From assembly GCA_946699065.1 (NCBI GenBank), contig CAMPDV010000039.1, positions 682,001 to 746,000 of the forward strand: 64,000 nt of DNA, written 5' to 3'. This DNA comes from Loxodes magnus. Lineage: Eukaryota > Ciliophora > Karyorelictea > Loxodida > Loxodidae. The position numbers were made by a program, and so were the translations under genes. This document shows, piece after piece, positions 1 through 24,959 of this stretch (its first letter is position 1; each line of letters begins with the position of its first letter). The notes under the pieces were generated by a model, which had not been told where the DNA came from, did not search any database, and saw nothing but the letters and a program-made list of their open reading frames with translations.

Positions 1-1412
1 TAATTTCTATCTAAAAGTTTATATTAATGTTTATTTTAAATTCATAAATAGTTTTTTTTCACTTCTTTAATGTGCTTTTCTTCGCATTTATGGTTTCTTT
101 TTAATTCCTAAGAGCATTTTTTACAGTTTTTCTTCGAACAATCATGACATAAAGAAAGTTAACCTTATTTGCTTTCAAAATCACCCTATTTTTAGCAAAT
201 AAAACATTTGAAAATGATTTAGAGTTATACTGATTACTGTTCAATTCTTTTTTGCTAAATTTGATTTCATAGTTCTTAATCTATTTTCTTTATATCTTAA
301 TCACTTATAGAATTTTTACATTACTAACAATATATTTAAACCTCAGATACTTCATCTCAGTCAATTCTTTCTTATAAATATATTTTCATACACTATTTAC
401 AGATAAGATGTTAGCATTAAAGTTAACATAATTATTAAAAATCTAGCAAAAGTTCACAAATATAACAGCAAAAAGAAATTCTAAGCTTTTATATTTCAAC
501 TTCTTACAAATTTTAGAAACAGTAAGTACATTTATCTTTTAAATTCTAAGAAGCACACATATTGCAAATTGATTATTAGCATTCACAATCATATTTAAAA
601 ATTTATTCTTCTTTAACTTATCTTTTACACTCTTTGCACTTTACTTACTTTTAATTTTCTAGATTTGTTTTATTTTATTGTTTCTTACTTGAAGTTCTTT
701 GTATTGCCAATTGTTTCGATTCTTCGAATTTCTAATTGCCTATAGCTAGTTTTATTTCTTACTCACTTATTTCTTATGTGCATTGCCCTACTTGATTAAG
801 CTTACAAATTATTTTATAACCTTTTTCATTTTCATTACAAATAAATTTATTATTAGTTTCAAGTGAAATATGGTTAAATAAGCAAGTTTTACACATAACA
901 TGATTACATTATAAGGTAATAAGCTGCTGCTTTTCATTTTTGAAACATTCGAAGCAAAATAATTCTTAAATTTCCTATTTTAGATTGTTTTAATTTACTA
1001 AATTTCTTTATTGGATTTCGTTGATTCGTTGAATGGCCTCTTCATACTTATTTGCTCCTATTATTTACTAAATTTAGGCAAATTAAATTTCTTTTTAGCA
1101 TAAAGGACAAGTTAAATTGAATCCCTTTTCACCTTCAATACTAATAAATCTTCCTTCAGTTTCAGATTCTAAATACGTATATAAGCAGTTCCTACAAAAT
1201 TTATGGCTGCAAGATAATTCAATTTATTAATTTTCTTATAAGCATCTTAGGCATTTATTCTAATTTATTTGCTAGCTTTTGTTAAGTTGCTAATTTTAAT
1301 CTATTTTTTAAGAACTATTTAAATTATTCTTTAAATAGCTTTCACTCTTTTATTATTGAGAAGTCTTTAAGATATCATATTGGTTGCAAACTGTCTGCTG
1401 TTTTTAATTTTG
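1..1412. repeat. Inverted repeat A, left arm (pairs with 18712-20123)
   Basis: Position x here pairs with position 20124-x on the opposite strand. Some blocks, such as the first 60 bases, are identical. Others differ at a few bases per 60, so overall identity is roughly 95%. The arm reaches the window edge, so its true left end is not visible. It covers the RING-array half of gene A and its stop. Similarity fades at about 1412 in the coiled-coil linker. Confidence 0.9.
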
Positions 1413-2108
1413 ATTAAATTTTTTTTTATTTTCTAAATCTTTATTCATATCAAAAACTTATTATTTCTGATTATTTAACTTTTCATTTTTTTTTTAAATC
1501 TCTTCTTCGAGATTTTTATTTGCAAGTGTCAACTTTTCTATCATTTAATATTTTAATTTTATTTCCTATTATGTTTTAATTTCTAAAAGCTAATTTATAT
1601 AATTATTAGGATATTAGAAATTTTATTCAATTCCTTGATGAGAGAGTTGGGGTTAAGCTTATTCATTTTAGACATATTGAGGAATGTTTTATTACTGATT
1701 TTAATTCAAAACTTAATTTCATTACAAGTTTTAACCTTAATTTTATTACTGCTTTGAAATTTAACCACTTTAATTTCCAAAGTTTTAATAGATATCCTAT
1801 TATAAACTTTATTTCTAATTTTATTAGTTAGCTTCGATTCTCTGCATGTTTTCATTAAAAAATTTGCTTAGTCTTTCTTCGGTAATTAGCATTTGCAGAA
1901 TTAAGTACTTTTCTTAATCTATATTCTAGGTTCCTTAACATAATGGACAATAAAACCAATATTGATTACTTGGTAATCCTTATTTAGAGTGTTAGATATT
2001 TAATTTATGACTTTCTCTCAAGTGGATTTTACATAGATTATGATTGCACTAAAGTTTAAGAATCTTGTAGCAATTCTATGCGCACTCTAGAGAGTTGCAC
2101 TTATCCAT
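42..2108 (-). CDS. Gene A: Cys/His finger, coiled coil and multi-RING protein
   Basis: The frame is open for 688 codons with TAA/TAG read as Gln and ends in TGA. The N-terminus has a finger-like pattern: C4, C9, C21, H23, C26, H29, then a CPLC pair at 54-57. A Q/N-rich stretch and a coiled coil follow up to about residue 230. The rest is a row of RING-like modules (CxxC...CxHxxCxxC...CxxC) ending in an IBR/RING2-like Cys cluster with a final HKC. The architecture suggests a RING or RBR-type E3 ubiquitin ligase; this is inference from Cys spacing, not a database match. The part from residue about 233 to the stop is nearly identical to the end of gene K1 at 16879-20082. The start is the ATG directly before the first Cys motif, matching the K1 start. 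There is no kinase domain. One Trp in the motif ELW is TGA here and TGG in K1. Confidence 0.8.
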
Positions 2109-5100
2109 TTTTATTTCAATAGAATAAAGCTGATTTAATAATTTATTTTGGAAGTTTTAATTTAATTTCATATGCTTATGATCTTAAAAATTTATAATCA
2201 TATTCTACCTTATTTCTCAAGTAATTAAAACTAAAGTATTTTCTTTCTTAATTTCAAAGCGAAAGGTAGTTTAAAATGGATAGATCCTATAATTCATTTA
2301 TTGTTTATAATGTCAGAGATGAGCTATTTTTAATAATTGGTATAGAGATAAAAGACTTTAGAATAATAAAGATTAGATAGCTACCATAATAAATTTATTA
2401 ATTACCTAAATCTGAAATTTAAGCAATAATTTTAATTTTTTCCTAGTCATAATGTGCTAATGCTGGAGTATGTATTAATATAAAAATACTTTAATTTTCG
2501 CTTTTGTAAGGATGCTTAATACTTATATCTATTAATTAAAGAATAGCAACATTGCTATAGAAATGAGATAATTAAAGTTGAAAATTTTCAAGGTTAAACT
2601 TGAAATATAAAATTAAGAATAGAAATAATAGTTAATTTGCCTTTAGTTAATAAAAATTGAAAATTCCTTTAGATTTAAAAAAATTATTTTCCTTTTTGGT
2701 TCAACTAATTTAATTTAAACTTTCATTGCATCAAAAAAATTAATATATGCTTTATTATAACTTTATAGTTCTCACTCTTTATAAATATTCATAAATTATC
2801 TTTAACTAATAAATTTTTATCACTTTTATATTAAAAAGCTTTGAAAAAAATTACTAAACATTCTAATAATTAGTGCTATAATATTTGAATAAGTTATGAA
2901 ATTTTAAAATTATTAAGTTTAGTGCTTTGGTCATTTATATTTATAATATAAGAATTGTATATGAAATAAACTACCTATATACATAGGCCTTTTCAAAAAT
3001 TCAAAGGAAATTATCATTTTAATTAAAGAAATAAATAGATTTAACAAGTCTTATTATTATTTAGTTTATTGTATAAATAATAAAGACTTATTAAACTTCA
3101 TAGGTTATCTTATATAGGGTATGCATTCTTAATGTTTTTGAAATAAATTTAAAGACTACCAATTTATTATGTAATAGAGTCTTTACTTATTGTTAGGATA
3201 AATTAAATTAGAATAATCTTAAAGTTAAGAGGTAATTTTAAGTTTAGAGTGATTTAATTCTTTTTAACGGTAAGAATTGGTTTTTTATGTATATATTTGA
3301 AGAAAGTCAGAATATTTCTCTTCTTTGTTTGTTCTGATGGACTTTAAAAAGTCTTTTAATGAAGATTCTATTGATAAGAGCTATAGAATTGTTTAGAATT
3401 AATATTTAGCATATTTTACTCTTTCTAAATTCCTTATAGAGAGTACGATTTATATTTTTAAATCTCTTAAGCTTTAATATTCTTTTTGCGCTTTTATAAA
3501 TAAACTTTATGAAAAGAAGGCTATAATTAATGTATAATATTAAAATTAATAAAATATTTTAGAGTTTAATCATAGTAAATAAACTAAAGTTATACATAAT
3601 GATCTCCTATATAAAAACTATTTATCTATTCCTATCCCTTTTATTAATTTAATCCTCCAGTTTATAAAATCATAATAATTCCCCTTATATAATTATATTA
3701 ATTAAAAATATTTTAAGTGCTACTATAAATAAATAATCTTAATAAACACATGATTGTCTCTTATTTATACTTCGAGATTTCATACAAAAAAAGACGTATT
3801 TAAGAGTAAAATTATTTTAAGTTTTAGTGCCATAAGATTTAAATAAATTAAATATAAGCTATAAAGTACAGGCTTCTCTAATATCACAAAAGCAAGCTTC
3901 ATATTCTCATTTTAAAACTTTCATTTTATTAATATCCTCATTATATCTAACCTAAGTTTCTAGCTTTAAATTTTCCTCGTTTAGTAACTAGAAGATAAAT
4001 ACTTATTATAAAATATTAAATGAATAGATACTGTTATTCTATCATGATCATATCACACTTAAAATTTAAGTTTGAAAAATAATAATGAAATAGAAATACA
4101 ACTAAAGGTAATAGGATATATTTATTTTATTAGTTAAATTTGTATTAAATATTTGATAGTTTGAAATATAGCTTTTATTAAATAAAAGAACAGATAGGAA
4201 TTTAGTACTTTCCTTTTAAATTTAATTAATAAATAAGCATAAGAGAAATATTAGTTCTAGATACCCTATTTAGTTATTCTTTAAAATCATAAGGAGTTAG
4301 CTATTTAGAAATTTCTCTTTTATTATATTTTAGTACATTAAAAATCAGTACTTATAATCGACTGATTCCAGCTTTATAGACACAATTTATGAAAAAAATA
4401 ATAAAATTTATAAAAACTAGATTGGCAAACGAAGTCTTTATAGAATAAAAATTAAAATAAGCAAGAAATGTAAATAAAATAGTAGAAGTTAAAGATTCAA
4501 GCCATTATAAATAATTATATATTTATTATAACTTAAACCAAAATTTTGTTCTGTTTAGTGAAATATTCCTTGGTATAAAAAGATTTAATTGAATATACTT
4601 AAATAATAGAAATTTTTTATCCAAGCATCACTAAAATTTTAAAGTTTTAATACAAAAAGAATAAGGGCTTTAAAAAAGAGTTCACACTTAGTTTTATAAA
4701 ATTTTAGCCAAAAGCATAAATTAAAATTCATAGAAAGATTATAAAAGAATTAAAAAAAATAAATTTGGTTTTATGAATTACTCAGATTAAATAGACTAAA
4801 AGCTTTTAAATAAATCTTCATATATAAAAGTTTGATAATTAAAAAGCGAAAATAATAAATCTAGTAAAATAACAAAAGAATAAAGAAAAAATAAATAAAA
4901 ATACGAAATAAGGAATCATAACTTTATCTTTTATTTATGATATTTTTAATTGAATGCTTTTAATAAGATCAAGCATATAATAACGTTCTTAATAGATCTA
5001 TGTAATTCAGATTTCCCCAAAGTTTAAATTGATTTTATAGATAAAAAATTAAAATTGTATATGTCTTTTAAAGCTATATATTAATAAAACGATTTAGACA

Positions 5101-6481
5101 TTAAATATCTGATTATTTATCTCTTGAATGAGCGATAAAAAAAATTAAATTTATAAAGCTTTATAAAACATTTAACTAACTTAATTTTGAATTCTGAATT
5201 ATAGTTTAAAAAACATTAAGCAATTTTAGTTAAAAGAAAACAATTCTTAGCCTAATAATTTAAATATAAAATAACTTTATTATCTATTTAATAAATAACT
5301 TTCATTTATAAAAAGGAAAATATTTAAAACTATTGAACTTGGTAATTATCTAATATATTAATAATTATAATTAAAGATCTTTAGTTTTATATATTAGATA
5401 AGTTAGAGAAATTTAGTTTAAGAGAAAAATAGCTATAAGAATGTATAAAAGAATTCATTAAAATATAAAAATAAATTATTTTCTAAGCAAATTAAGATAA
5501 AGCTTGCTAAGAAAAATATTTGAGAAATTAATTGGAATAAGCAAGGATTAGATAAAAATCGTTTAAAGTTATAAAATTCTAATTCTGTTATATTAGACTT
5601 TTTAGATTGTTATATTGAAGTTGCTATAATTAAATATGATGAAACATGCTTTTTTAAAATTTTATTTTGCTTTAATTTTAAATAAAAAAGTTTCATTTTT
5701 CCTTGAAATTTAAATGGTAAGCAGTTTGAATAATTTATAAATAGAAGATTATTTTATTTATCTAAACAGATTTAACTCCTTATCCAATAAGACTGAATAA
5801 AAAGCAAATTTCTCTTTTATGGAATGTAGTGCTAATAGTTAAACTTTGAGCTTTATATAAAAATTGTTTAGAAAGCCATGGCTTTATGATTGAACGGTAT
5901 TAATATTTTTTATTTTTCCACTTTAAACTTAAAAATTAAATTTAAAGAAGTGATAAAACATTTCAGAAATATTATAAATTATGAAGGTTTAAAATAAAAT
6001 TATGCTTATATTTTGAGTTTATTCCTTTTTTCTAGTTTGTGTAAATTTGAAAATTAACTACTTTATTTTATATATAATTAAGAATAAAATTAAGCGAAGC
6101 TAATATCATAGAAACTAAAGGATTTTGAGTTTATTTAATCTGATAATTAAAATAAATAAAAAAAAGTTGAGTTAAATACGAATTTTAGCTAGCTAAAAGC
6201 AATCAAATAATTTATACACTAAAGGGAATAGTTATATTGATATATATTAATATTTAAATCAGAAAAAATATTTAGAGTTAATTTCAAGCTTTTAGCGAAA
6301 TTAAATTTAAGACAGAAATTTAAAAAACAATGGATAAGAAGATATAAATGTATTTGGAATATTCTTATTTTATATTATTAAATATTTATAATAAAAGGAT
6401 TGATAAAGTTTTTTTCTTATTAGTTATATTATATTTCAATTTAATTAGATAGAAAGAGTAAAATAAGTTATTTCTCTTTAT
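2109..6481. other. AT-rich spacer between genes A and K2
   Basis: This stretch is about 15-20% G+C and runs between two minus-strand genes. I see no recognisable protein motif, RNA gene or repeat. Most of it is absent from the matching position of the K1 locus, where the two flanking halves are fused. Confidence 0.5.
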
Positions 6482-9427
6482 TCATTTATAAGCGTGCTTC
6501 ACCTCCTCAATATGTTTTTCTTGACATTTATGACCAGGAATAAATGGCTAAGAACATTTTCTACATGCTTTCTTATAACAATTTTGACAAAGTGGAAGTT
6601 AACCTTTTACTTATTTTATTTACTTGTTCGTTTTACAATTAAAGCAATTGAGTTAGTTATTTTGCTCTTTAACTTAACTAGATTTTGATTGGGCTCTTTT
6701 TTGAAGAATTTTATTTCATAAATTCGAATCAAAATTCTCTATTTCTTAATTACTTAAAGGTTCTTTACATAGCAAGCATCTAATTTAGTTTTCTTAAACT
6801 AAATCTTATCTAATCATTTCCCTTATATGGTTTGACAAGCAATCTTTGCATAAATAACCCTAACATTTCAAGTTACACAAAAGATTTAAATCTTTCAACT
6901 TATTACAAGGTATACAATGAAAGTAATTTCTAAGACGTTATTTTTATTTTTCATTGAAAGTATATGAGCAAAAAATACAACTGTCTTTGAAGTTTTCAGA
7001 GGCACATGAAAAGCATACTGGCTATTAACATGAGCATTCATAATCAAATAATACTTCTTTAGAACGAGCTTTTCCACAAATCAAGCAGTTACCTTTTTTT
7101 ATTTTTTACTTGCTATTTTCTTTTTATTGATTACTCTTTTCCAAATTTTAAGCTTCCTATTTTTTGTTTTTTTCTAATTCCACATATCTTATTATTTATT
7201 ATATCTCAGTGTCTTTTATTTAATATTAGCACTATCCTACTTCACTTCTCAAGCATTTTAGTTAATATCCTTTTTCTCCTACACTTATAAATCTTCCTTC
7301 AGTTTCAGATTCTATATATTTAAATAAGCAATTCTAACAAAATTTATGTTTACAAGATAGTTCAATTTAATAATTTTGTTATTAGCATTATAAGCATTTA
7401 TCCTATTTTAAATCTAATTAATTTAATTGGTAGTTATAATTTTAAGATTATTAATTATACTATTATTTTATTTCTTAAAACTAAGGTTATTTATTCTCTT
7501 CTATTTGTTTTCATTATACTTATACTTATCTTTATTAATCTATTTGCTAATTACTTTCTGTTTGGCTTGCTACTTTGTTTACTTGATACATAGAAATATT
7601 TTAAGACTTTTATTAATTTTGAGCGTTTAGCTGATCAAATAATATCTACTACTGATAATCAATTTATGATTTTTGCTCGTTTCTTTACATTTACTTCATC
7701 ATATCTTGCATTTGTTCCATTTTTATTTTAAGTTCTTAATTCTCTCTTCTACTACTTTCAAGTAAAGAACTTAGTTTTTTAATATCTTCTTTTTCTTATT
7801 AAGATTGTAGCTTATAAATTAAAATTTATTCTTTATATTTATTATTTTCTATTTCCTAGTTTTAAATTCCTTACTGTTGCTTATTTATCTCTTCTATATT
7901 AACTTATAATTATAAATCTTTATTCTAATTCTATTGCTTTAATTACTAATTTTCTACTTCTAATACTTAAATTATTTGCTAAAGTTTTAAACATTAGGGA
8001 CAACCTCTTCACTCTCTACTTTAAATAGAAACTTATAATAAATCACACAATACTTAAGTAGTTATCATTTAATACTAAGATTAAAAGCAGACTTATATGA
8101 TCTTTTATAGATCTTAGTCTAAATTTTTATCTACTTATGGAGGAGTTCCATTAGAAATAAGATGGAAAACTTAATTTATATTTTGTAACTCATTGTAAGG
8201 TTATTTTCCTGTAAGTGCTTATAGTATAGTACCTCCTAATTTTCAAATATCACTCTTAGACGTTATTGTTCTCTATTGATACTACTCAGGTGCAAGATAG
8301 TTAGGAGTTGCAACTATCTAAGATTACATAGAGTAACCAACTTATCCCAATTATTCCTTATACTCCATTACTCTAGAAATTCCGAAATCTGATATTTTTG
8401 CTTATCCCCCACTATCAATTAAAACATTCTAAGGTTTTAAATCTCTATGAATTACATTTCTATCATGAAGAAGCTTTAATCCTTAAGCAACTCCATGCAA
8501 GTGCTTTAAGAATCTTAACTGATCACTTTATGTTAATGGATATGAAACTTTATCAATTTCCTTTTATAAATCAGAAGGACAATATTCCAAGATAAATGCA
8601 ACTATATTACTGAAAATTACTCCATGGAGTTAAAGTACATTCTGATTTCCTGTCACTCTTCATTATACTTCTACTTCTGTAATTAAAGCTTAAATTCACT
8701 GTTAAGGATCCTTTATACTTTGTTCTTTTATTATTTTTATAGCATAATTATTTTCCTTTCATTTGCATAAAAACACTTTCGAGAATCCTCCTTCACCCAA
8801 TAGTTAATCTTCTAAAATTTATACTTCTTGTAGAGAAACAAAGGGAAGACCTTATGTCTTTAGGTAATTTAATTTATTTTAAATATCAGGATTTAGAAAA
8901 GCTTATTATACTTTAGGATCTAACTAGAATTTAAAGACCAACTGTTGTTAGAAGCTTTGATATTGGTTCTAAGGGAAATTTTGTTGAGGATGTTCTTAAT
9001 TTATAATCTAATAATTTAGGGGTCAACTATTGCTTTATAAATTTTATTATTAAAGCTAGTTTCCTATCATATCATACTGAGTATTAGGTAAGACTTGATA
9101 ATTAAATTCTTGAGAATAGAAATTTTAAAATTAGTTAATATTCTAAACCTGCTTTTAGCTTATTTATTCAATATTTGGAACCAAATTTTCCACTGGAATA
9201 AAGCTTTATAAAGTTTGTATTTCTTATGCTCCAAGTAGTACTATTTTATTACATTAGATGCAATAAAAATAATTGTTTTAGTTTTGAAATTACTAGAAAT
9301 TATTCCTATAACTCTATCCTTATTTATAAAGTGTATTAAGATGAAGATTACAGTATCCATGTTAGCATCCAATGTTTAAAAGTAGCTACTTTTATCAACA
9401 TTCAGGATAATTACAGTTCTACATCAT
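6482..9427 (-). CDS. Gene K2: Cys/His finger, protein kinase and multi-RING protein
   Basis: The frame runs 981 codons and stops at TGA. Residues 1-575 match gene K1 essentially residue for residue. They include the finger (C5, C10, C21, H23, C26, H29, C56, C59) and a full Ser/Thr-type kinase domain: GEGGFSKV loop near 211, HRDLKPQN near 327, DFG at 347-349 and APE near 380. After a coiled coil the RING array is homologous to, but clearly diverged from, that of K1 and gene A. It keeps the CxxC...CxHxxCxxC spacing and a final IBR-like cluster. The expected role is a kinase coupled to an E3-ligase-like module; substrates are unknown. TGA encodes Trp several times, including the Trp of subdomain IX. 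No intron is needed. The TGA stop sits at the same alignment position as the stop of K1. Confidence 0.82.
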
Positions 9428-9522
9428 AATTATAAAATAGAGCTAAATATTTAGAATAAAAGTTAGTTTATAACTTTTATTTTTCTATTTGTTTCATAAA
9501 TTAATTATTATATAATTAGTTT
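7702..9522. repeat. Inverted repeat B, left arm (pairs with 16784-18604)
   Basis: Position x pairs with 26306-x on the other strand. Every block I compared was identical. The arm covers the finger and kinase half of gene K2 plus about 95 bases of upstream sequence, so the likely promoter was copied as well. Similarity stops abruptly at both ends. Confidence 0.92.
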
Positions 9523-12500
9523 ATTTCTTTTATATTCATCTTAACTAACTTTATATTAGTGCTTATGAATCAATTATTGTTATATTAAAACATAAAATGA
9601 GAAAAATTGATGAATCAACAGTTGCTAATGATAAGTTTATTTGATATTGCCATTGTTAATTGTGAAAATTAAAAAAATTAGATAAATTATAAAGTTAGAA
9701 TTAAAGATTGATTTAGAAAAATTTGAACTGAGTTATTTGAAAATTTCTTTTAAACTTCTTTTATTTTATAATGTATGTTTGAATACTTTGCTAAAAAAGC
9801 TAAATTTCGCTAAAGATTGTATACTTATTTGTTAAATTGTATCTTCTTAAATAAGTTGTAGAGATCTACCTTTTCCTCATTGCTTTTTAGTTAAATAGCA
9901 ATTATGATATTTAACTTGATATAATGGTAATTTAATTTCTACTTTTGATTTGATCTTAATCAGCTGAATCTTTAATAATTTAAAATAGTAAGAATAAATT
10001 GTACTGAAGCTAAAAATAATTTTCAGTTTAATTGAATGAAACTAACTCTGTTAAATAAAATTTATCTTAGCTAGAGTATATTTGTTATTTTTGCGTTTTC
10101 ATTCTTTCATAAATAGACTCTAAAATAAAATAACCTATTTAGTTCCTTTAATAACCATTTTATAGTTATAATATTTATAAAATAGAGCTATATTCGATAT
10201 GGTAATACAAGTAAACTATATCAACTATTTTTATAAATTAATTTGAAAAATAATTAGTTATGATGATAATTTAATTATAGTTGATTGCTTAATAATTATA
10301 AGCCTATAAAGTTTAAAAAACTTATTATAATTTAGTAAGACAACAGCCTTTGTGTATAAAATTAAGGCTTATAAAATTAATTAAAAGCTTTTATCTTAAT
10401 TTTAACTTTTAGTGTTTTTATCTATTTGAAGCATAAAAATAATTTAACTAGTTTTAGCAAGTTTTTTATTCTATTTTCTCTTAAATGTTTAGAATCATTC
10501 AGTTAGATATTTCTCCTTAATTACTATAATTAGCATTAGCAAAGTTTATTATCTTTTTGATACTTCAATTTATTTCTTTATTTTCTATTTTCTCTTAAAT
10601 TTCTATCTATTGTAATCTATAAGCATATAAAATCATTTTTATTATTTAATAAAATACCTAGTAGATTACTCATAGTTGTCTCTTTTATTTCGAGTAAGTT
10701 TGGATGTTGAATAAATTAAAATAATTTTAATTTCTTTATTATATTAATCTAGCTTTAAAAAGGATTTAGCTTAAATATCATAATTTTAAAGTTAGAAATT
10801 ATTTTTAAACTATTCATTTTTTCCTTGTAGTAAGCTTTTTCTAGTGAAATGGTATTTAGCACTTTTTTTCGTTTTATCTGATATTTTTATAAAATTTTGA
10901 ACATTAAATAAATAAATAGCTTTGCTGTATATTAATTATTTTATCTTTTCCAGAATAAAATAAAAATAGTTATTCTCATTTTATTTGTTTATCTATTCCA
11001 TCATAATCACTATATCATGCTAATTATTTTCTTTCTTTCTTTATATCATTATTCTTGCTAATTTAGTATAATTTTGCTTAGATCATTTCATTAAAAGGAC
11101 TTTTAAAACTTTTTATTTAGTAGAGTTATTAAAAGCAAAGCTATTTTATTCTAAGGTTTTCTCTATTCTTCATAATTTTTATTTCTAGTAAACTATCAGG
11201 TTATTTCATAGTATAAATCTTTCTTTTTGCTACTATTTCTTCTCTAAATATTTCCTTCTAAACAATATCTTAGATATTTTATTCTATATACAGATATTAA
11301 ACTAAAAAAAGTATATAAAGCTAAGATGAAATTAAGTATAAAAGGAAAATAATTTAGATATCTTTCTAGTAATTTAAATGGAAGCATAGAAGTAACTTTA
11401 GCTATTAAGACTTATTATTTCTATTAGTATAGCTGAATATAATTTGTTTTTCTCTAATTTAGCTTTTCTATAAATTAAAAATTATGTTCTGAATACCTTA
11501 AACCAGATTGTTAGTTTAATATTTTAGCTCTTTATATACTTAAAATTATTTAGCTTCTCTTCTATTTTATTAATATTTAAGTTAAAGTAGATAGACATAT
11601 CATGTAGGTTTATTACGCTTTTATTATACAAATGTATTTATTTTAATTAAAATTGAAGCTAGAGACTAGTTATTTTCCTCTTTCCTTCTCTTTGTTAATA
11701 TAATATTTTATCATAAAGGTTAAGAGCAATAGAGATATTTAATTGAATGTCTACTTTTATATAAAAGTAATTACAGCATGCTGCATTTATACTTTTACTC
11801 TTAACAATGTACAATTACCTTATATTTGCTTAGCTTCTTCCTTCACTACTCTTTATATCTAATTTCATTTAAAGTAGTTATGCTTATTTTAAATAAAAGC
11901 TATTGTCTAAATAGAAACGATTAAATATAGCAAAATAAGTTGAAATAGCTTTAATTATAATAAGGCAAAATATAGATATTATGATAGAAATAATTAATTA
12001 TAAGTATTAAGCTATCTAATAAAAGCTTTCGTTAACTATTACAAGAACTAACCTAGTGCTTATCTATCTAGAGATAAAGCATAGTTATCAAGAAAATGAT
12101 TTAGACTAAGTTAAAAGTAATAAATTTAAATAATTTATATTTAAGAAGGGACTAAAAGTATTTAATTTAACTTAATTAAATAAGAAAGATTTAATAATAA
12201 ATCTAGCTAGTTAAAAGCTAATAAGGATTATTAATAGAAGTATATGCAAATATTAATGTTTATTATATTATTTTCATTCATTTATCAAAAGCTTTTATGC
12301 TTTATAGAATAAAACTAAATAGTTGATTAACAAGTATTAAATTTAATTTCATTAGCTTTAAGTATTCATCATTCCTTTTAAGATTTTTGCTTATTTAAAG
12401 TATTTTTATTGCTGACTATAATTTTAAGGTTTAAGAAATTTTAATTTTATGGCTTTTTTTGCTTAAAGTTCTGTAAAAGAAATAGAGTAAATGTCGATAC

Positions 12501-15500
12501 TCAGATGTATATGCTTAAATGCTAAGCTTAGAAAAAATTTACGTATTTGTTAATAAAACTTAATTTTAATATCTATTTTATTTATAATTATACAGCTCTA
12601 AAGTCTTATTTCTAAAGTTGTATAAGCTGCATTTAAAAGCATGAATTCAGATTATAAATTTTAGTTAATAAAGAGATTGGAATTAAAAATTACTATGCAA
12701 ATCTTAAAAACAAATTATCTCCTATAAGCTCAAAATTTAATCATAGCAATAGATATCTTTAAGACTTAGCATTTTAAACTAACTATAAAGAGAGTAAAAT
12801 AGATATAACTTTTTATTATAAAAGTTTCTAATAAATTTATAGATTCTTATTTAAAGTCTATTAATTTTGTTTTGTGTATACGATTTTTCTTTTATTAAGT
12901 ATCTTCATTATATACATTTTTAATGTATTAACTATCTCATTTTATTTTGACTTATCTACTATTTAAACTTAAATTCAATTCCTTCACTTCTAATTATAAA
13001 AAAATGTGTTAAAAGCAAAAGAATTCAAATAAATAAAAAAGTGAAAATAATTTAGGTATGCCATAAGTAATTTTATAGAAAGCTCTAAATAAATTATATT
13101 TAACTTAGATTTAATTATTCCATTTCTAGAATTAAGTTTACAACTTTCTAATAAATCTTAGAACATCAATCATGATTAATGGAAATACAAATAAAGCTTT
13201 ATATAGAGAAAGGAAATTAAGGAAGCTAATTTTAATCTATTTGACAAGAAATAGAAGAAATTTATAATAAAAGGTATATTAAAACTTTATATCAATTAAC
13301 ATAATAAATCTGAGCATTTTACTATTTTGCTCTTTTACTAATTTATTAAATTAAAAGATCAAAAATAAATTTAAATTTTAAGCTTATTTTTAGTTAAAAT
13401 TTCTTAAATTCTACTATCCGAGAATTTAAGATTAGATACCTTTTATAAGTTTGCTTCTTTATTCTTAAATTAATTACTAATTTATATAGCAAGCCTAATT
13501 TATCTAACTCAGCATTAAATTCTTAATAGCACAATATTTTATAATTTTAAATGTTTAGAAGAAATCAATTTTTATAATGTTTTATTAGTCTTAGAAAAAA
13601 AACTTTAATTCATTTGACTTTTTACAGTGCTTCGCGCCTTTTAATCAAAAACTTTTTTAGTAAAAATAATCCTAAAAATTGATAAGGATAAGTTTACTTT
13701 AAACTTAATTAAAATAGGAAATTAACTAAGATTTTTCTATTATAATGATTTCTTAAATCTAATTAACTATAAATTAAGAAACTAAATAATATTAATCTTA
13801 TTTAGTTTAAAATAGAAATATAAGTATAAGCTTTTAGTTTATTACATTTAGAGAAGCAAGGAAATTACCTACCTTAATAAATTGTTTAATTTGGTTCTAA
13901 GTAAAATTTAAGACTTATTGCAGATTTAAAGACTTAACTTCATAACTAAGCAAGATATATTATTTTATGGAACTAAAGAAATAAAATAAAAATAGAAAAT
14001 TGAGTTATAATTTAAACTGTAGGCTCTTATATTAGCATTTATTTCTTAATTTAGTTATTTAACTTTTACAAATTTATTAAAAGCTTAGTTAGCTTGATGC
14101 ATTATGAGTAAGACAATATAAAAATTTAAGAATATTAGCTATAGAAATAAAATATAATCCCATAAATAAAAATAAGCTAATTCTAAAATAGCTAATAGCT
14201 TTAATTAATTAGTTATGCTTAATTACAATGTTTAAAGGAAATTCCTTGTAAGCTCTTAGATAATTAATAATAGTTGAAATTATCAAACTTTTTCTAAACT
14301 TTATAATCTAAAATTAGATATTTAAGTTAAAAAGGTTGATGTTGCTTAATGTAATAATTAGATGCTATTTATATAAATTAAAAAATATAAAATTACTTAT
14401 ATAAATTATCCTTTAAAACTATCAAATCTCTATAATCATTTTTAACTTTAAGGATACTTTAAAAAGAAAAAGAAGAGCTTTAGTTAATTTTTATCTTTCA
14501 GCCCATATAAATATCTCACTTTTAAAATTAGATGAAAGTAATCAAACAATAGATAAAATTATTATCAAAAGAGGAAAATTTGCTGGTAAAATTTCTTTAA
14601 ATTATAATAAAAACTGAACCCTTACACTAATTTTAACACTTAAGATAAAAATTGCTTAATTATCATATGAAAGGATAATCCATAGCAAAATCTTTAACTT
14701 TCATAATTCATAATTAAAGATAAAAACATAAATAGCAAAATAAACTACTTAGACATCAATTAATAGAATTTACAATAAATCTATAAAATTATAGCACTAT
14801 TAGCTATTTCACTATGTATTACTACAAAAACTCAATGAATAGTAATAAATCAAATTATAATGCTATTATTTATTAAATACATAAGATTCTTATTAATTAA
14901 GTTATGCTTCTCCTTTTTTATTTAATAAACTTAGAATTTGCTATGAGACTGATTCCTTAATTCTAAGTATAAACTTAAATAAAAGAAAGTCAATCTTAAT
15001 TAATTTTAAGAACAGTAAATTTAATTTTTTTCTTGAGAAACTAGATCTTTCTATAAAGTAAAGCCATCTCAAAATGAGTGCAAATTTGTCAAAATCTTTA
15101 CCACATGAACGAATTTAGTCTTTATTATTATCATTTTGGTTCTAAATGAGTTTATTTTAGAAATGATAAGAGTAAATTCTCAGATTATATATGTAAATAA
15201 ATGATGAATAAGGTATTTATTAATCTTTATAAATAATTATAAGCTTTTACTTTATTACATCTGATATATCTATTATTTTAAGGGATTTAGACACCAAAAT
15301 ATATATCAGAGTCTGGATTTTCTTAGCTGGATCAATTTTAATTTAAATAAAAGCTCATGAACTTTTTTGGTTCATATGCACGAAAGGAAATCAGTTCAAC
15401 CAATAAAAAAGACTCTCAAAGTAACCAAAGTAATTATATCATCATCAAATTTAGATTAGGTAGACTAAAAATTCTACAAAGTGTTCTAAAATTATAAGGA

Positions 15501-16783
15501 ATTATAGCTCAATACTTAGAAAGCATTATAATAACTTTAAAGACGTAAAATCATCTATAAAAGATAACTAGGAAGTTCAAGTATAATAGCTAAGATTAAT
15601 TCCTTAGCAAAAGAATTCATTAATTTGCTTTAAATCTAATATTAAAGTGCAAATCTATTTTAATTATATCTAAATTAGATATTTTTTCCTTCTAAAATAG
15701 AAAAGCACATACTGCAATTGAGTACTGACGTTACAATTGAATAATAATTTTAAAAAATATAAGGCTTTAACTTTTAATTTGGAATATAGAAATAAATATC
15801 TTAGGGAAAATCTTATACTTGTAAATAAAAGAAAGTTTGATAAGTAATTGTTTCTCAAATGAGGAATATATTAATATAAGTACATTGTGATTAATAATAC
15901 TTAGCATTCTAGATATAAGAATAAATAATATTGGCAGAAATACTTAATGAATAGCTTTAATGAATTAAGTTAGGGGAGAATCCTTAAATAATAAATTTAG
16001 AAAATTATAAAAAATAAGCTAAGTATTCATAGTTAAATATTTAATATCTGAATTATTCTTAAATCCTTTTATTTAATGATTAAGAGCTAAAGCATTTATA
16101 TCTGCTTAAATTATAATTATATATTAATTCATTATGCTAAGTAAAAAACTAGTTAAATTTTGAAATAACTTTTATAACAAAAATTAAGATAAGTTTTCAA
16201 TGATTTAATAAGCATTAAAACAAAAAAGCATATAGAAACTTATTTAGATTATAAAATATTAAGATGAGATTAAATATAAAACTTTTATAATTTTAAATTA
16301 ACTTCAAATATAAATTTAAAGTTTTATCTTTAAAAAAAGAATAAATTTTTATAATTGAATATAAATATTACAAAGATAAATGAATATACTTTATAAAATA
16401 ACTATCTTGATAGAGCTTATAATAAAGCTTAAGACTCAGCATTCATAGTAAACTTTCAACTTATTAACAATTATTTAAATCTCTTCTTATCTCTTTTATG
16501 TTTATTAATCTTTATTTTAAAAAGAATCATCATAATAATTTTATTTTGCTAGTCACTTTTTTATGATATGCTTAGTTAAAACTTAATCCAAATAACCTTA
16601 ATTTTTATTGTTTAAGTACTATTTTCTCTTTGCCTTTGAATATAAAAGAAGAGAAACATTTAAAAGAAAGATAATTAATTTAATAATTAGTCATAACTTT
16701 TATTTATTAATCAATTATAATTTTTATTCTAGTTACAATTTTATCTCTTGAGACTGGTATCTATTATAATATAAAAGTATAGT
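9523..16783. other. 7.3 kb AT-rich spacer between inverted repeat B arms
   Basis: The spacer is very AT-rich, with no recognisable conserved domain, RNA gene or repeat unit. With TGA as the only possible stop, chance open frames are common here. I could not separate any of them from background. Confidence 0.5.
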
Positions 16784-18604
16784 AAACTAATTATATAATA
16801 ATTAATTTATGAAACAAATAGAAAAATAAAAGTTATAAACTAACTTTTATTCTAAATATTTAGCTCTATTTTATAATTATGATGTAGAACTGTAATTATC
16901 CTGAATGTTGATAAAAGTAGCTACTTTTAAACATTGGATGCTAACATGGATACTGTAATCTTCATCTTAATACACTTTATAAATAAGGATAGAGTTATAG
17001 GAATAATTTCTAGTAATTTCAAAACTAAAACAATTATTTTTATTGCATCTAATGTAATAAAATAGTACTACTTGGAGCATAAGAAATACAAACTTTATAA
17101 AGCTTTATTCCAGTGGAAAATTTGGTTCCAAATATTGAATAAATAAGCTAAAAGCAGGTTTAGAATATTAACTAATTTTAAAATTTCTATTCTCAAGAAT
17201 TTAATTATCAAGTCTTACCTAATACTCAGTATGATATGATAGGAAACTAGCTTTAATAATAAAATTTATAAAGCAATAGTTGACCCCTAAATTATTAGAT
17301 TATAAATTAAGAACATCCTCAACAAAATTTCCCTTAGAACCAATATCAAAGCTTCTAACAACAGTTGGTCTTTAAATTCTAGTTAGATCCTAAAGTATAA
17401 TAAGCTTTTCTAAATCCTGATATTTAAAATAAATTAAATTACCTAAAGACATAAGGTCTTCCCTTTGTTTCTCTACAAGAAGTATAAATTTTAGAAGATT
17501 AACTATTGGGTGAAGGAGGATTCTCGAAAGTGTTTTTATGCAAATGAAAGGAAAATAATTATGCTATAAAAATAATAAAAGAACAAAGTATAAAGGATCC
17601 TTAACAGTGAATTTAAGCTTTAATTACAGAAGTAGAAGTATAATGAAGAGTGACAGGAAATCAGAATGTACTTTAACTCCATGGAGTAATTTTCAGTAAT
17701 ATAGTTGCATTTATCTTGGAATATTGTCCTTCTGATTTATAAAAGGAAATTGATAAAGTTTCATATCCATTAACATAAAGTGATCAGTTAAGATTCTTAA
17801 AGCACTTGCATGGAGTTGCTTAAGGATTAAAGCTTCTTCATGATAGAAATGTAATTCATAGAGATTTAAAACCTTAGAATGTTTTAATTGATAGTGGGGG
17901 ATAAGCAAAAATATCAGATTTCGGAATTTCTAGAGTAATGGAGTATAAGGAATAATTGGGATAAGTTGGTTACTCTATGTAATCTTAGATAGTTGCAACT
18001 CCTAACTATCTTGCACCTGAGTAGTATCAATAGAGAACAATAACGTCTAAGAGTGATATTTGAAAATTAGGAGGTACTATACTATAAGCACTTACAGGAA
18101 AATAACCTTACAATGAGTTACAAAATATAAATTAAGTTTTCCATCTTATTTCTAATGGAACTCCTCCATAAGTAGATAAAAATTTAGACTAAGATCTATA
18201 AAAGATCATATAAGTCTGCTTTTAATCTTAGTATTAAATGATAACTACTTAAGTATTGTGTGATTTATTATAAGTTTCTATTTAAAGTAGAGAGTGAAGA
18301 GGTTGTCCCTAATGTTTAAAACTTTAGCAAATAATTTAAGTATTAGAAGTAGAAAATTAGTAATTAAAGCAATAGAATTAGAATAAAGATTTATAATTAT
18401 AAGTTAATATAGAAGAGATAAATAAGCAACAGTAAGGAATTTAAAACTAGGAAATAGAAAATAATAAATATAAAGAATAAATTTTAATTTATAAGCTACA
18501 ATCTTAATAAGAAAAAGAAGATATTAAAAAACTAAGTTCTTTACTTGAAAGTAGTAGAAGAGAGAATTAAGAACTTAAAATAAAAATGGAACAAATGCAA
18601 GATT
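16784..18604. repeat. Inverted repeat B, right arm (pairs with 7702-9522)
   Basis: This is the reverse complement of 7702-9522, with no mismatch in the blocks compared. It covers the 5' flank and the first 575 codons of gene K1. About 107 bases (18605-18711) separate it from inverted repeat A. Confidence 0.92.
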
Positions 18605-20082
18605 ACTAAAATTAAAGTTAAAAAAATGATGAATAAAAAGAAATAAATAAAGAGAAACAATAACTTCTAGAAAAAATATAAAATCTATAAAATCAAAAAC
18701 AATTTAGTAACTAAAATTAAAAACAGCAGACAGTTTGCAACCAATATGATATCTTAAAGATTTCTCAATAATAAAAGAGTGAAAGCTATTTAAAGAATAA
18801 TTTAAATAGTTCTTAAAAAATAGATTAAAATTAGCAACTTAACAAAAGCTAGCAAATAAATTAGAATAAATGCCTAAGATGCTTATAACAAAATTAATAA
18901 ATTGAATTATCTTGCAACCATAAATTTTGTAGGAACTGCTTATATACGTATTTAGAATCTGAAACTGAAGGAAGATTTATTAGTATTGAAGATGAAAAGG
19001 GATTCAATTTAACTTGTCCTTTATGCTAAAAATAAATTTAATTGGCCTAAATTTAGTAAATAATAGGAGCAAATAAGTATGAAGAGGCCATTCAACGAAT
19101 CAATGAAATCCAATAAAGAAATTTAGTAAATTAAAACAATCAAAAATAGGAAATTTAAGAATTATTTTGCTTCGAATGTTTTAAAATTGAAAAGCAGCAG
19201 CTTATGACCTTATAATGTAATCATGTTATGTGTAAAGCTTGCTTATTTAACCATATTTAACTTGAAACTAATAATAAATTTATTTGTAATGAAAATGAAA
19301 AAGGTTATAAAATAATTTGTAAGCTTAATCAAGTAGGGCAATGCACATAAGAAATAAGTGAGTAAGAAATAAAACTAGCTATAGGCAATTAGAAATTCGA
19401 AGAATCGAAACAATTGGCAATACAAAGAACTTCAAGTAAGAAACAATAAAATAAAACAAATCTAGAAAATTAAAAGTAAGTAAAATGCATTGTTTGTAAA
19501 AGATAAGTTAAAGAAGAATAAACTTTTAAATATGATTGTGAATGCTAATAATCAATTTGCAATAAGTGTGCTTCTTAGATTTTAAAAGATAAATGTACTT
19601 ACTGTTTCTAAAATTTGTAAGAAGTTGAAATATAAAAGCTTAGAATTTCTTTTTGCTGTTATATTTGTGAACTTTTGCTAGATTTTTAATAATTATGCTA
19701 ACTTTAATGCTAACATCTTATCTGTAAATAGTGTATGATAAGATATTTATAAGCAAGAATTGACTGAGATGAAGTATCTGAGGTTTAAATATAATGTTAG
19801 TAGTGCTTAGAATATTTAAGTGATTAAGAGATAAAGAATATTGATTAAGAACTTTGGAAATAAATTTAGCAAAAAAGAATTTAACAGTAATCAGTATAAC
19901 TCTAAATCATTTTCAAATGTTTTATTTGCTAAAAATAGGGTGATTTTGAAAGCAAATAAGGTTAACTTTCTTTATGTCATGATTGTTCGAAGAAAAACTG
20001 TAAAAAATGCTCTTAGGAATTAAAAAGAAACCATAAATGCGAAGAAAAGCACATTAAAGAAGTGAAAAAAAACTATTTATGA
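16879..20082 (+). CDS. Gene K1: mosaic Cys/His finger, protein kinase and multi-RING protein
   Basis: A single intronless frame of 1067 codons. The finger is at 5-59. A linker rich in Q, N and P follows. The kinase domain spans about 205-470, with Gly loop GEGGFSKV at 211, VAIK-like AIK Lys, HRD at 327-329, DFG at 347-349, APE at 379-381 and the subdomain IX motif SDIW at 392-395, where W is TGA. A long coiled coil rich in E, Q and K spans about 490-660. From C665 there are four RING-like Cys/His modules, then an IBR/RING2-like cluster at about 1014-1060 ending HKC. All catalytic kinase residues are present, so it is probably active; E3 activity is inferred from Cys spacing. The gene joins the 5' half of K2 to the 3' half of gene A, with the join inside the coiled coil and in frame. 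The start is the first ATG before the Cys motif, aligned with genes A and K2. Confidence 0.85.
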
Positions 20083-20123
20083 ATTTAAAATAAACATTAA
20101 TATAAACTTTTAGATAGAAATTA
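18712..20123. repeat. Inverted repeat A, right arm (pairs with 1-1412)
   Basis: This arm covers the last 1.37 kb of gene K1 plus about 40 bases past its TGA stop. It is the reverse complement of 1-1412 with scattered substitutions. Since it holds across the stop codon, the copied unit included a short 3' flank. Confidence 0.9.
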
Positions 20124-22730
20124 ATAATTATTAATTATATTAAGAAATAAATTTACTCATTCTAAAGTCATTCAAATAAATTTAACTTCTCATTTATCTT
20201 TTAGTTAAAGCATTAAAAAATCTTAATTTTCCTTTAAAAGAGGAAAAGACTGCATATTTATAAGTTCAATAAGAGAAATATTTTATTTACTGAAAACAAG
20301 CTTTCTTAAACTGAAGCAATTTATTCCTAAAACTTTAAAGCATTATTTAGATTTAAACTTTTGATTTGTTTTATAAAAAAAAAATTTGTAATACAATATT
20401 TTAAAATTTTCCAACTCATAAACTTACGGAAATTGAACTTATAAAATCATATGAAGATATCTTCACTTAAGCAAATTTTCTTCAATTATAGAATAAAGAA
20501 ACATAGATTGAAATTTAATAAAGCAATTAAATATTTAAGACATTTAATTCAACTTTAGATTCATTACTATGCCTGACTTATTATTTTTGGACAAATCTTC
20601 CTAATGTGATTTTATGATTTTAAACATAAAAAGTTGCAGAATAAATATGATCAGTTAGACAAATAGGTTATTATTAAGTTAAAGATCATGATACTTTAGT
20701 CCAAAAAATGTTGGTCTATCGGAAAACCTGATAGCAATTTTAAATATAATGTAGCAGTCCTCGTCTAATTTAAATGATCTATCAATCAAATTTTGCAAAT
20801 AATATTTTTATATTTTTGTTGATTTACTCCCATAAACTATAAAATAGGAAACGTAATAAAGCCTTTAGAAAGAAGAATCCATAAATGAACTGAAAAGATA
20901 ATGTCCAGATCCATATTTTGCATTTCTTAAACAATATCTCAGCAAATTAGTTAAAATTAGCATTATTAGAGACTTTTGAAAATATACAGTCGAAGATACC
21001 TCTAAATAATAATATAATTTTTCTATTAGCATAAAGAAAATCCAAAAAAATCTCCGTATTGAAATTAGTAGATAAAAAGGGAAATTGTAATTTATGAATC
21101 TGGATTGAAAGGAATCTCTTAATCAAAACCTTTATACTATTAAAAATAAGTTAAAACTATTTACCAAACATTAGATTTGTATATATCATTTTATCCAATA
21201 ACTGTAACAACAATATCCAAAATTTTATTTTCTGGATATTTTTAAGTAATTGATTCTTAAAGTAACTATTAAATTCCAGCCTCTGCATTTTTTAATTTTA
21301 TAGATACTATCATGATATTAGATATAAGGGTAATTAAAACTGAGAAAACTAAAATTTTGCTTATCATATAATTTTTAAAGATGTTGTCTAGTGTATAAAT
21401 AGGATTCCATCAAGAAGATATAAAGATTATCTAGAATTCTTAGAAGTTAAACCAAAATTATATAACTTGTGCTTTAAAATCATTTATTTCGCTTGCTTAA
21501 ACTAAGATTTTGTTGTGATAGTCGTGTAATTTTAGTGGTATTTCTTCTTCTAGTTAGTAAGTATTTTATAATATATTTAAATAGATATATTAGTAATTGA
21601 ATCCATTTAGAATATACTAATTTTCACTATTAAGTTCCTTAACAAATATTTACCAAATTTATATAAAAAGCAGTAAGTATTTAAGAATATATTGCTTTTA
21701 TTATGAAATTATATGATGCTAAGCAAAAATATTATATAAGATGAGATAGAAAAGATGTTTAGATGGTAAAATATAAGGTTTTAATATTCTAATTCTTTCT
21801 AAAGAAAATAAATTCTATTAATATATAAAATATGAATGACTACCTCAACCAGGGAACTTGTAGGAAAACTGATGCAGTTTATAATATATTGTGAGCAATC
21901 TAGCACTAGATTTCAACATTAATAAGGGTGGACAAGATTGGAGAGACGCCTAATTTGTCTGAAGGTTTTTGCAAAGCGGTTCGAAAGCAAAAATGACGGA
22001 GGCTCCTAATAAATGATTCATAATTTCCTTCATCGAATCTTACATAAGCTGCATGGAGGAAATGCTCAATTTACTCAATTTCTAATCCTCATTTCTAATT
22101 TTTTTTTAGAAAACTGATGCATTTGCAACAAGATTCGAGAATAAGCTAATAAGATGAATCCCAACTTATCGAAATCAATTTTTCTCATTTGATAGATATA
22201 TTGAGATAAGTTTATAAATAAGAATATTTATATTAATAATTGATTAGTGGCAATCCTATTAACGGCGATTTCATGCAAATTTAATTATTATACTTTCAGT
22301 GAAATTTAACATCTAGGAAGATATATAACACTATTTTAAACAAAATTTAAGAAATTAGATGTATAATTTAATTTAGAATAATAAAGATAAGTTTTAAGTG
22401 TTTTAATTAAACTTAGATTCTTAAATCTAAATTTTTAAGCATCGAAACATATTTTACAAGTTAAGTTTTTATCTCTTTCTATATTATTAAATATTCTTTA
22501 AAAGGAAAAAGATAAATAGATTAAACTTAATAGGAAAATAAATTTTAGTTCTCTTGATTTAAGTAAATTTCTTATATTTATCTGATTAACTTTTACTTTT
22601 AAATTTTTGGGATATAAAATGCTTTTTCTTATTTTAGCTAAAAAATATTTGAAATAAATAATTTAACATTTATAATTTAGAATTTTATGTATTAAAAATG
22701 TTATCTCAGTTCATTTCTTCTTAAAGCAAT
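20083..22730. other. Spacer after K1, with weak coding signal and a GC-richer island
   Basis: This lies between the stops of K1 and gene D. A plus-strand frame around 20,870-21,520 is fairly rich in charged and hydrophobic residues and could be a gene fragment, but I recognise no motif. The island at 21,861-22,121 is listed separately. The rest is featureless AT-rich DNA. Confidence 0.35.
21861..22121. other. GC-richer island bounded by 13-bp direct repeats; possible structured RNA
   Basis: The 13-mer gaaaactgatgca occurs at 21864-21876 and again at 22109-22121, in the same orientation, 245 bases apart. The DNA between is visibly richer in G+C than its surroundings. It has self-complementary segments, including tttttgc...gcaaaaa around 21966-21995 and gacaa...ttgtc around 21930-21960. 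It could be a non-coding RNA, a small mobile element or an unrecognised exon. I match it to no known RNA family. Confidence 0.3.
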
Positions 22731-24941
22731 TCACTTCCATTTTTTTTTATCTTCAAATTTGCATTTATGATATCCTTTTACAAGTTAAAAGCATTTTCTA
22801 CATCTTTTATTTGCACATTGATTGCACACAATAAGTTCTCCATGCTCTACTTTCTCCACATTATCTTACTAGCAATTGAAACATTATTTCATCTTTTTCT
22901 AATATATTTTTTCACCCGTTTTATTTTAGTTTCAATATTGATATAATTTTTGTAATGGTTTTTTAATTAAATCTTAATTGAATATTCATTTTATATTTTC
23001 TTAAAACTAATTTACTAATACTTTATTGCATAATGGACAACTTATATTCCTTTCTTCTACATTGTCAAATTAAAACTACTAGTTTAAAAAATCTAGCATG
23101 CATTATTAGCATATTAAATGTTGGCATTCTAAATTACAAAATTCTCTTACATCTTTAAAGATTGTGCATTTTTAGCATTTTTCTTGCTTCTTCCTTTTTA
23201 TTTTTTAAAGAAATTGATAATCTTTTTAATTTAAATCTTAAGAGCATAAAGGACAAGCTTTTCCAGTTAAATGTTTAGTTGCACATTCATAACAAGTTAC
23301 TTTTTCGCAATTACAATCATATATAAACGTTTATTTTCACTCAATATTATTTCCACAAAATATGCATTCTCCTTCTTGCTTCTTTTTTTAATTTATAGCT
23401 TAAACTTGGTTTTAATTTTGAAATCTTTCAGCTGCTTCTTAACTACTTTAATCAAATCTCTATTTTCCTATAGCTTCTATAATTTCTTAGTCTTGCAATA
23501 TATATTAGCATATATTTTGTTAACTAAGAATGCATTTAATTTAGTAACCTTTTTCTCCTTCTAGGCAAACCATTTTATTATCAGTTTCTTCAGCTATATA
23601 ATTATATAAGCATTTTTTGCATACGTTATGGTTGCATTATAATGTAATTAACATATTTATTTCTGCTTTTAAACAATTGAAACAAAAATATTCTTGCTTT
23701 TATTGATTTTACTAAGAGCTTGCAAGTTGCTTTTTCTCTTAAATATCTTAAACTCTTTAAATTGCATTCATATATTCAGTAGTTCCAATAATAGATTCAA
23801 GCTCTGTATGGTTAATTATATATTTACACTTTAAACAATTTAAATTATATCCTTATTCTTCTTCAGTGCTTATAAGCAAACCATTAGTGGCCTAATGGAT
23901 GTAGTTATTTAGACACTATTAGCAAAATTAATGTCCGCATTTTAAGGCTATCCAATATTATTATTCCTAGCATTGCTAGCATTATTGATTTGCTACAGTT
24001 TTATTTATTATTTATCATTCTTATTATTAATCAATCTGAGAACCCTTCTAGTTCTATTAATTTTAATTAATTCTTAGGATCTCTTATTTTTATTATAACT
24101 ATAATTCAAGCTGGCTAATTTAAGATTCATTTTTATTTACTAATTCTTATTTTTCTTTTATTTACTTTTTAATATCTTCAGATTTTTTCGTCTATTAGTC
24201 TTTCTCAGAACTTAAAAGCAAATTTTCTTCATTCATTTTCTCTAAATCAGACGCTAACTTTTATTTTTACTTTTCTTTTTAACTAGCTGCTAGCTTGTTA
24301 TCCTCTATTTTGTTTTTTGAGACTTAATTGTTATGGTTTTCTTGCTTAAATTAAGGTAAATGATTAAGCAATTTTAATTTATTTAGTATTTATTATTTCT
24401 TTTCGTTTTACTTTTGCTATTCTTGTTGTTTTATCAAATTTACTTATTATTATTATTATTGCTGCCACTCAGAATTATTATTAGGTTAAGCTTGATTTTA
24501 TAATCCTACTTGATATGGCTGATAGAAATTTTATGCTGGAGAATTTTGGTTTTACTATCCAAAAAGCTAATTTTGATATTAAAAGTTTGATTAATTTGCA
24601 TTATATACTTGTGACTAGGGATTTATAGTGGGTTAGTTGAACTGCTACTAAAATTATTCCTGATTTTGGTGATATAAAATTTTTGTTTAAGGATTTTGTT
24701 AATACTACCCAGTAAACTAGTTTTGCTACTATAAGTTTTACTAATTTTGACCTTACTATTAGAATAGTTACTATTATTAGATATAATAGTTAGAGTTAGG
24801 CTATATATAGCTGTTTTTATTAGTATTTACAGTGTTTTATTGCTGCTGATTATTCACTAAAAAATTTCACTTTTAGAGCACATCCTTATTAGACTCTTAA
24901 GGAACATAGTTGTTTTGTGAAAATAAAAGAGAACTGCTCAT
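22731..24941 (-). CDS. Gene D: Q/N-rich, coiled-coil, multi-RING protein
   Basis: The frame is open for 736 codons and ends in TGA. The N-terminal 190 residues are dominated by Q, N, Y and P. A coiled coil of E, K and Q follows to about residue 310. From C321 (CQQC...CGHQFCQQC) to the end it has the same row of RING-like modules as genes A, K1 and K2. It ends in the IBR/RING2-like cluster (CFNCQ...CNQC...CRKC...HKC). It lacks both the N-terminal finger and the kinase domain. By family resemblance it is probably an E3-ligase-type protein. An in-frame ATG at 24962 is an alternative start. Trp is encoded by both TGG (SEW) and TGA (KIEW region). Confidence 0.78.
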
Positions 24942-24959
24942 TTTGAATTCCGAAATAAG

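Follow-up and report, generated by a model that had tools for sequence, protein, structure and literature searches.

A functional-looking chimeric kinase–RING gene of the ciliate Loxodes magnus, probably formed by copying between inverted paralogues

How did one gene of the karyorelict ciliate Loxodes magnus come to consist of a 5′ half identical to one neighbouring gene and a 3′ half closely resembling another, with both neighbours on the opposite strand? In order to address this we analysed a 64,000-nt stretch of contig C39 (C39:682001-746000; hereafter the window, numbered from its first base) and searched the genome to which it belongs (705,730,643 bp in 7,843 contigs). The gene, K1, looks like a functional chimera of a known kind, made by copying between paralogues. 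The three genes principally concerned are:

16879..20082, forward strand: K1, the chimeric gene, a single open frame with TAA and TAG read as Gln and TGA as Trp
6482..9427, reverse strand: K2, a kinase–coiled coil–RING gene with one of two tandem RINGs missing; likely donor of the first block of K1
42..2108, reverse strand: gene A, with a Cys/His-rich N-terminal stretch, coiled coil and RING array; closest relative of the K1 3′ half

Using translation table 11, we found no frame of ≥150 aa across the whole window, and long genes emerged once TAA and TAG were read as Gln and TGA as Trp. Read in this way, K1 comprises 1,067 codons plus a TGA stop, and its frame contains 114 TAA and 32 TAG codons, both specifying Gln as in the karyorelict code (NCBI table 27). 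TGA also occurs within the frames as Trp (eight times in K1, nine in K2 and three in A), and a Trp common to K1 and A at codon 993 is written TGG in the former and TGA in the latter. Table 11, and likewise table 6 with TGA as a stop, was rejected because eight in-frame TGAs would break K1, yet the frame is homologous throughout, and because that one Trp is TGG in one gene and TGA in the other. The protein alignment of K1 and K2 terminates at TGA in both genes, and A ends at the same TGA as K1; the final stretches of the three genes (25 codons in K1 and in K2, 24 in A) contain neither TAA nor TGA, and one TAG each. This terminal pattern is the one described for Loxodes magnus, in which TGA encodes Trp within genes and is the sole stop at their ends, and TGA and TAA, not TAG, are depleted in the last ∼20 codons (PMC11441545).

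The K1 product begins with a Cys/His-rich stretch, followed by a protein kinase (residues 207-451), a coiled coil recognized by eye and a RING array. Pfam searches returned Pkinase (PF00069) at 5.1e-45 and zf-C3HC4 at 1.2e-4; against a cut-off of 21, PF00097 scores were above it in K1 (22.3) and A (26.1) and below it in K2 (18.5). The catalytic motifs appear intact by eye (NYAIKII, VIHRDLKPQN and ISDFGISR), and we take them to match the Lys in AIK, HRD and DFG, respectively; no kinase was found in gene A. Searching NCBIfam gave generic kinase matches far under the cut-off and nothing else for K1, and none for A, whilst a PDB sequence search matched K1 to general kinases (best 60 of 2,612) and A to one weak entry (E=0.023). 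Searches of the window for tRNAs and Rfam families gave 0 matches. Classification of K1 as an RBR E3 ligase (RING-IBR-RING2) was rejected, as no IBR family appeared among the Pfam matches up to E=1. As judged from its domains, K1 presumably specifies a Ser/Thr-type kinase and an array of RING-like zinc domains linked by a coiled coil, a putative E3 ubiquitin ligase with its own kinase, which may phosphorylate or ubiquitinate.

The kinase half and its counterpart in K2 are as follows:

16783..18603, forward strand: block 1 of K1, an exact copy of K2 9523-7703 (0 differences in 1,821 bp)
7703..9523, reverse strand: the donor segment in K2, identical to K1 and used for comparison with K3 (below)

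An earlier note on this DNA had described the kinase half as a mismatch-free reverse complement, and we were able to confirm this after shifting its coordinates by one base. Block 1 comprises 96 bp of 5′ flank before the ATG, the N-terminus, the kinase and the first part of the coiled coil, and its match to K2 is beyond chance (BLAST E = 0). The modelled heterozygosity of L. magnus is 0.59-0.60% (PMC11441545), and the probability of 0 differences in 1,821 bp is 1.8e-5 at 0.6% divergence and 0.004 at 0.3%; in block 1, K1 and K2 are nearer each other than two average alleles, consistent with recent copying. Beyond the block edges the similarity to K2 is not significant (P=0.15 and 0.17 from 250 random segments each, the latter for an extension score of 7 rightward from 18604). 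As homology-driven conversion usually leaves older flanking homology, edges at which it is not significant count against conversion of this kind. The RING parts of the two genes are only 42% identical. In K2, and in a further copy of it termed K3, the start of RING 1 is joined to the end of RING 2 (window 6482-7411 in K2), an in-frame loss of one tandem RING. Both RINGs are kept in A, K1, gene B and the other family copies compared, and the A-type RINGs give K1 the full tandem set.

The rest of K1 divides into a joint and a RING half, within which one stretch stands apart:

18604..18712, forward strand: the joint in the coiled coil of K1, with diverged homology to the coiled coil of A from ∼18632
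18713..20246, forward strand: block 3 of K1, an A-type RING array plus ∼164 bp of 3′ flank, with patchy identity to A
19737..19884, forward strand: an island of higher divergence from A within block 3 (20 of the 42 differences; dS 0.26)

Ungapped comparison of K1 18713-20123 with 1411-1 gave 42 differences in 1,411 bp (97.0% identity). The RING half is the reverse complement of the left end of the window, as previously claimed, at a lower divergence than the ∼5% then given; with sequence to the left of the window included, the likeness runs from ∼18632/1492 to 20246/-121 at 95.6% over 1,619 columns. K1 is thus the proposed mosaic of a K2 5′ half (0/1,821) and an A-type 3′ half (42 differences), and the source segments, said to be ∼6.3 kb apart in the left locus, are separated by 6.2-6.3 kb. 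The 107 bases that were thought to join the halves indeed lie inside the coiled coil with the frame open across 18604-18712 (TAA/TAG as Gln, TGA as Trp), but they are not unrelated filler. Leftward from 18712, extension against the coiled coil of A scored 29, with no score above 15.5 among 250 random segments of the window; BLAST extension of the K1/A homology reaches 18632. From 18632 to 18712 the similarity to A falls steeply and is still real; the coiled coil adjoining block 3 is A-like. Older homology is likewise present at the other edge of block 3 (score 23, including 4 identical bases, against a null maximum of 14.5), where the likeness of K1 to A decays into diverged sequence.

Within block 3 the differences between K1 and A are clustered and the tracts of identity exceed chance, as in a chimera formed by gene conversion between paralogues. 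Twenty of the 42 differences lie within the 148 bp of the island, a concentration equalled in none of 20,000 shuffles; the island also holds six of the 11 synonymous differences (P=5e-4, in a window picked post hoc). The longest identical run, 337 bp extending through the stop codon and 3′ flank, has P=0.001, and after neighbouring differences were merged into 32 events, probabilities of 0.0014 and 0.01 remained. Divergence expressed as dS reaches 0.26 in the island, compared with 0.014 over 18713-19484 and 0 over 19885-20079. Not one gap occurs amid the 42 substitutions, where 4.4 non-triplet indels would be expected from K2/K3 non-coding DNA (P=0.012), and none of 47 Cys and His residues is changed amid 28 amino-acid differences (P=0.04); the overall K1/A dN/dS of 0.63 indicates weak to modest constraint. 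Taken with the diverged coiled coil and 3′ edge, block 3 is most readily interpreted as an A-type paralogue of older date that was partly homogenised with A.

Searching the genome for the A family gave at least 69 matches, and 65 of 701 candidates were scored. Among these matches, K1 was the sole one close to A, the others showing ≤45% identity save for a short 58% match in K2, so that none of them was near enough to serve as an outgroup for block 3. A RING tree of 12 rows groups K1 with A (support 100/99); this was the one grouping that we used, as K2, gene B and C397b form long branches. Among the 65 of 701 candidates scored, neither the K1 3′ half nor A has a closer relative than the other.

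We consider it probable that K1 arose by copying between paralogues of opposite orientation on one chromosome, with an A-type RING gene at the site and the 1.8-kb K2 segment copied into it. An A-type gene, or a relative of one, would already have occupied the K1 site, and its RING array would have exchanged tracts with gene A; such exchange, suggested by the pattern of differences, would leave identical stretches alongside islands of older divergence. Later, the K2 segment, carrying the 5′ flank, N-terminus, kinase and start of the coiled coil, would have been copied in, most simply through ectopic gene conversion between the inverted copies or a template switch from one to the other, the repair route being a presumed one. 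The copied segment would have ended inside the coiled coil, so that the K1 frame stayed open.

The earlier note had favoured a deletion following duplication of the entire left locus in inverted orientation. This would entail a single inverted duplication of the K2–A locus (∼-121 to 9523), an internal deletion fusing the K2 copy to the A copy and conversion refreshing the kinase half. The order and orientation of both blocks fit such an event, and their outer edges fall at the two ends that such a unit would have had. We nevertheless find it unlikely, as extra conversion is required in both halves, an even spread of the block 3 differences was rejected and divergence from A is far greater in the coiled coil at 18632-18711 than in the RING tracts. 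The duplication is not needed, and it leaves that coiled coil, the island at 19737-19884 and the decaying 3′ edge unexplained. A second contention of the same note, that the two halves have different histories and call for gene conversion or separate recent copying, held up; an outgroup, K3, shows the K1 junctions with K2 sequence to be derived.

K3 came to light in a search of the genome with K1 DNA, which gave 46 matches. Forty of 58 candidates were scored, and among these the long matches were K1 itself, K2, A and K3 (C39:502460-504579). Located ∼185 kb from K2, K3 is a copy of the K2 region with an identity of 91-92% in coding and 87-88% in non-coding sequence, and it has evidently decayed, with 18 non-triplet indels in its coding-sequence region. 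Collinearity between K2 and K3 extends across either edge of block 1, from which it follows that the K2 arrangement is old and both K1 junctions are new. An older K1 kinase half overwriting K2 would have left the block far more distant from K3 than the remainder of K2. Taken whole, it is not: K2-K3 substitutions number 150/1695 in the coding part of block 1 and 92/1148 in the rest of the coding sequence (Fisher p=0.45), with 642/5186 in the non-coding flanks, so that the K2 block does not look foreign. The most likely course is a transfer of block 1 from K2, the donor, to K1, the recipient. The K2-K3 divergence that supports this is uneven: one tract, window 8400-8799, differs between the two at just 10/399 positions, against ∼8-12% elsewhere, and may have been exchanged between them or have been strongly conserved before K3 decayed. 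It is also possible, alongside the result with K3, that K1 and K2 were kept alike by earlier exchanges. As an 84% match to K3 spans 18604-18712, we considered it as a separate carrier of the K1 junction; this was rejected because the K3 coiled coil follows that of K2.

These comparisons also bear on the reverse direction, in which K1 would be an old full-length source from which both the K2 kinase half and the A RING array were copied. In line with this, K1 has both tandem RINGs, as do the other family members compared, and K2 has lost one. Moreover, with the best-conserved tract (8400-8799) left out, a post hoc cut, block 1 of K2 is 10.8% from K3 (140/1296) against 8.0% for the rest of the coding sequence (92/1148; p=0.02). 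Over the whole block, however, the difference is absent (p=0.45), and even the trimmed block is no more diverged than non-coding DNA (642/5186; p=0.13). In addition, with the RING parts of K1 and K2 at 42% identity, a K1 kinase half of great age should be more conspicuous than it is, and the sequence across both edges is common to K2 and K3, which makes the K1 junctions the derived ones. These points concern the kinase half; between A and K1 the tracts may have passed either way. The probability that K1 was the source of both is very low.

CCS long reads normally span 1.8 kb and would span block 1; the join preserves the frame, block 1 ends mid-gene and no other close copy of the K1 RING half, joint or downstream flank was seen among the matches scored in our genome searches, all of which makes an assembly artefact, a misjoin or over-polishing that set the K2 kinase half before the K1 RING half, hardly credible, even though collapse would yield an exact 1,821-bp identity and the published L. 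magnus assembly is a diploid-collapsed, Racon-polished Falcon assembly with a 96% identity threshold (PMC11441545).

K3 itself is rearranged relative to its source:

3614..13166, reverse strand: the K2 segment copied as K3, as a circular permutation of C39:499945-509273

The K3 copy interrupts a LINE-like repeat, and three other copies of the repeat align unbroken at that place. TATTTC flanks the insert on either side and has a single occurrence within the K2 segment; the three other repeat copies have TATTTT at the site. Most simply, the K2 segment would have formed a circle and integrated at a match of 5-6 bp, although copying out of phase from a tandem array would look the same. Duplication via a circular DNA intermediate has been described for tilapia vasa (PMC3245284) and cattle KIT (PMC3420103). 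K3 resembles these cases and differs in its size (∼9.5 kb), in its ciliate host and in having landed within a LINE-like repeat; the likeness concerns K3, not K1. The repeat of ∼5.3 kb, termed LINE-like on account of its size and a description in PMC11441545, has three copies around the window that are 77-85% alike (C39:644383-650360, 749079-754379 and 760763-766000).

Elsewhere on C39 we observed a tandem array whose units recur every 1,571 bp and are 100% identical (C39:530501-538000, reaching the end of the piece examined), as well as a 924-bp inverted repeat of 99.5% identity (C39:478233-479156 and 482064-482987). Downstream of K1, window 20420-21127 recurs in many contigs at ∼72-85% identity and gave no Pfam family above the cut-off in the one frame scanned. 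No empty K1 site was found in a search with the right flank, which matched mainly dispersed repeats, from ∼150-170 bp past the end of K1.

Is the domain order of K1 new? The earlier note had viewed K1 as a natural experiment in domain shuffling between tandem ubiquitin-signalling genes. The birth of a new kinase–RING architecture via the K1 fusion was rejected, as the kinase–coiled coil–RING order recurs in five copies elsewhere in the genome, on C174, C2406, C2896 and C781 and, in truncated form, on C1987. These are ∼35% identical to K1 over residues 186-1066 (215-1066 for C1987), a figure that rises to 40% for the RING array and, in the four copies compared, to 41-42% for the kinase. Their RING arrays are 99-100% identical to one another, and three of the kinase–RING copies have 6.6-8.9 kb in common with the C174 copy at 98.9-99.6%. 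They share the domain order of K1, but they are not built from K2- and A-like halves. In the C1987 copy (C1987:10001-20000, ∼6587), the sequence upstream of the middle of the kinase N-lobe is unlike that of the others, and the gene is truncated or re-fused. The family of kinase/RING and RING-only genes is large (at least 69 matches to A), with members on C1987, C781, C174, C2406, C2896, C2263, C61, C91, C397 and C39. RING genes like A at two further loci (L011 and L025) had no kinase match within the 9-10 kb examined, and a further RING gene lies beyond K1 in the window:

22743-24242, reverse strand: gene B, another RING-array gene, its array 36-38% identical to those of A and K1

No kinase was detected near gene B in three frames of 22701-25802. 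Literature searches returned no title or abstract opening on chimeric genes formed via gene conversion between ciliate paralogues, and those on ciliate kinomes, zinc fingers and RING architecture showed no such genes in the titles and abstract openings of the matches listed.

K1 finds its nearest parallel in chimeric genes that arise through conversion or copying between paralogues within inverted repeats, for example in the arms of human Y palindromes, inverted copies on one chromosome described as having tracts of perfect identity together with patchy older divergence (PMC6790999). At the K1 locus, in contrast, the arms belong to separate genes, K2 and A, with spacings of 7.3 and 17.3 kb, and the tracts meet within one recipient gene. 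K1 is a clean case of related genes overwriting each other rather than a new kind of gene. It represents a well-resolved domain swap between paralogues in a karyorelict ciliate, with both breakpoints and the likely donor and recipient in hand, and it cautions that whole-gene trees of the kinase/RING family will give misleading results. Alongside K3 with its circular permutation, it points to a single gene having been subject to two distinct modes of copying within 200 kb. The L. magnus k-mer spectrum carries signs of paralogy, and the genome is reported to be without extensive programmed editing (PMC11441545). A wider and improbable reading of the K1 mosaic, the RING loss in K2, the circle-borne K3 copy and the truncated C1987 copy is that Loxodes kinase cassettes and RING arrays have been repeatedly exchanged between inverted and dispersed copies in a large, fast-duplicating family, with recombination serving as a combinatorial generator of ubiquitin-signalling proteins; if true, such exchange would operate in a ciliate whose genome is reportedly free of extensive programmed editing.
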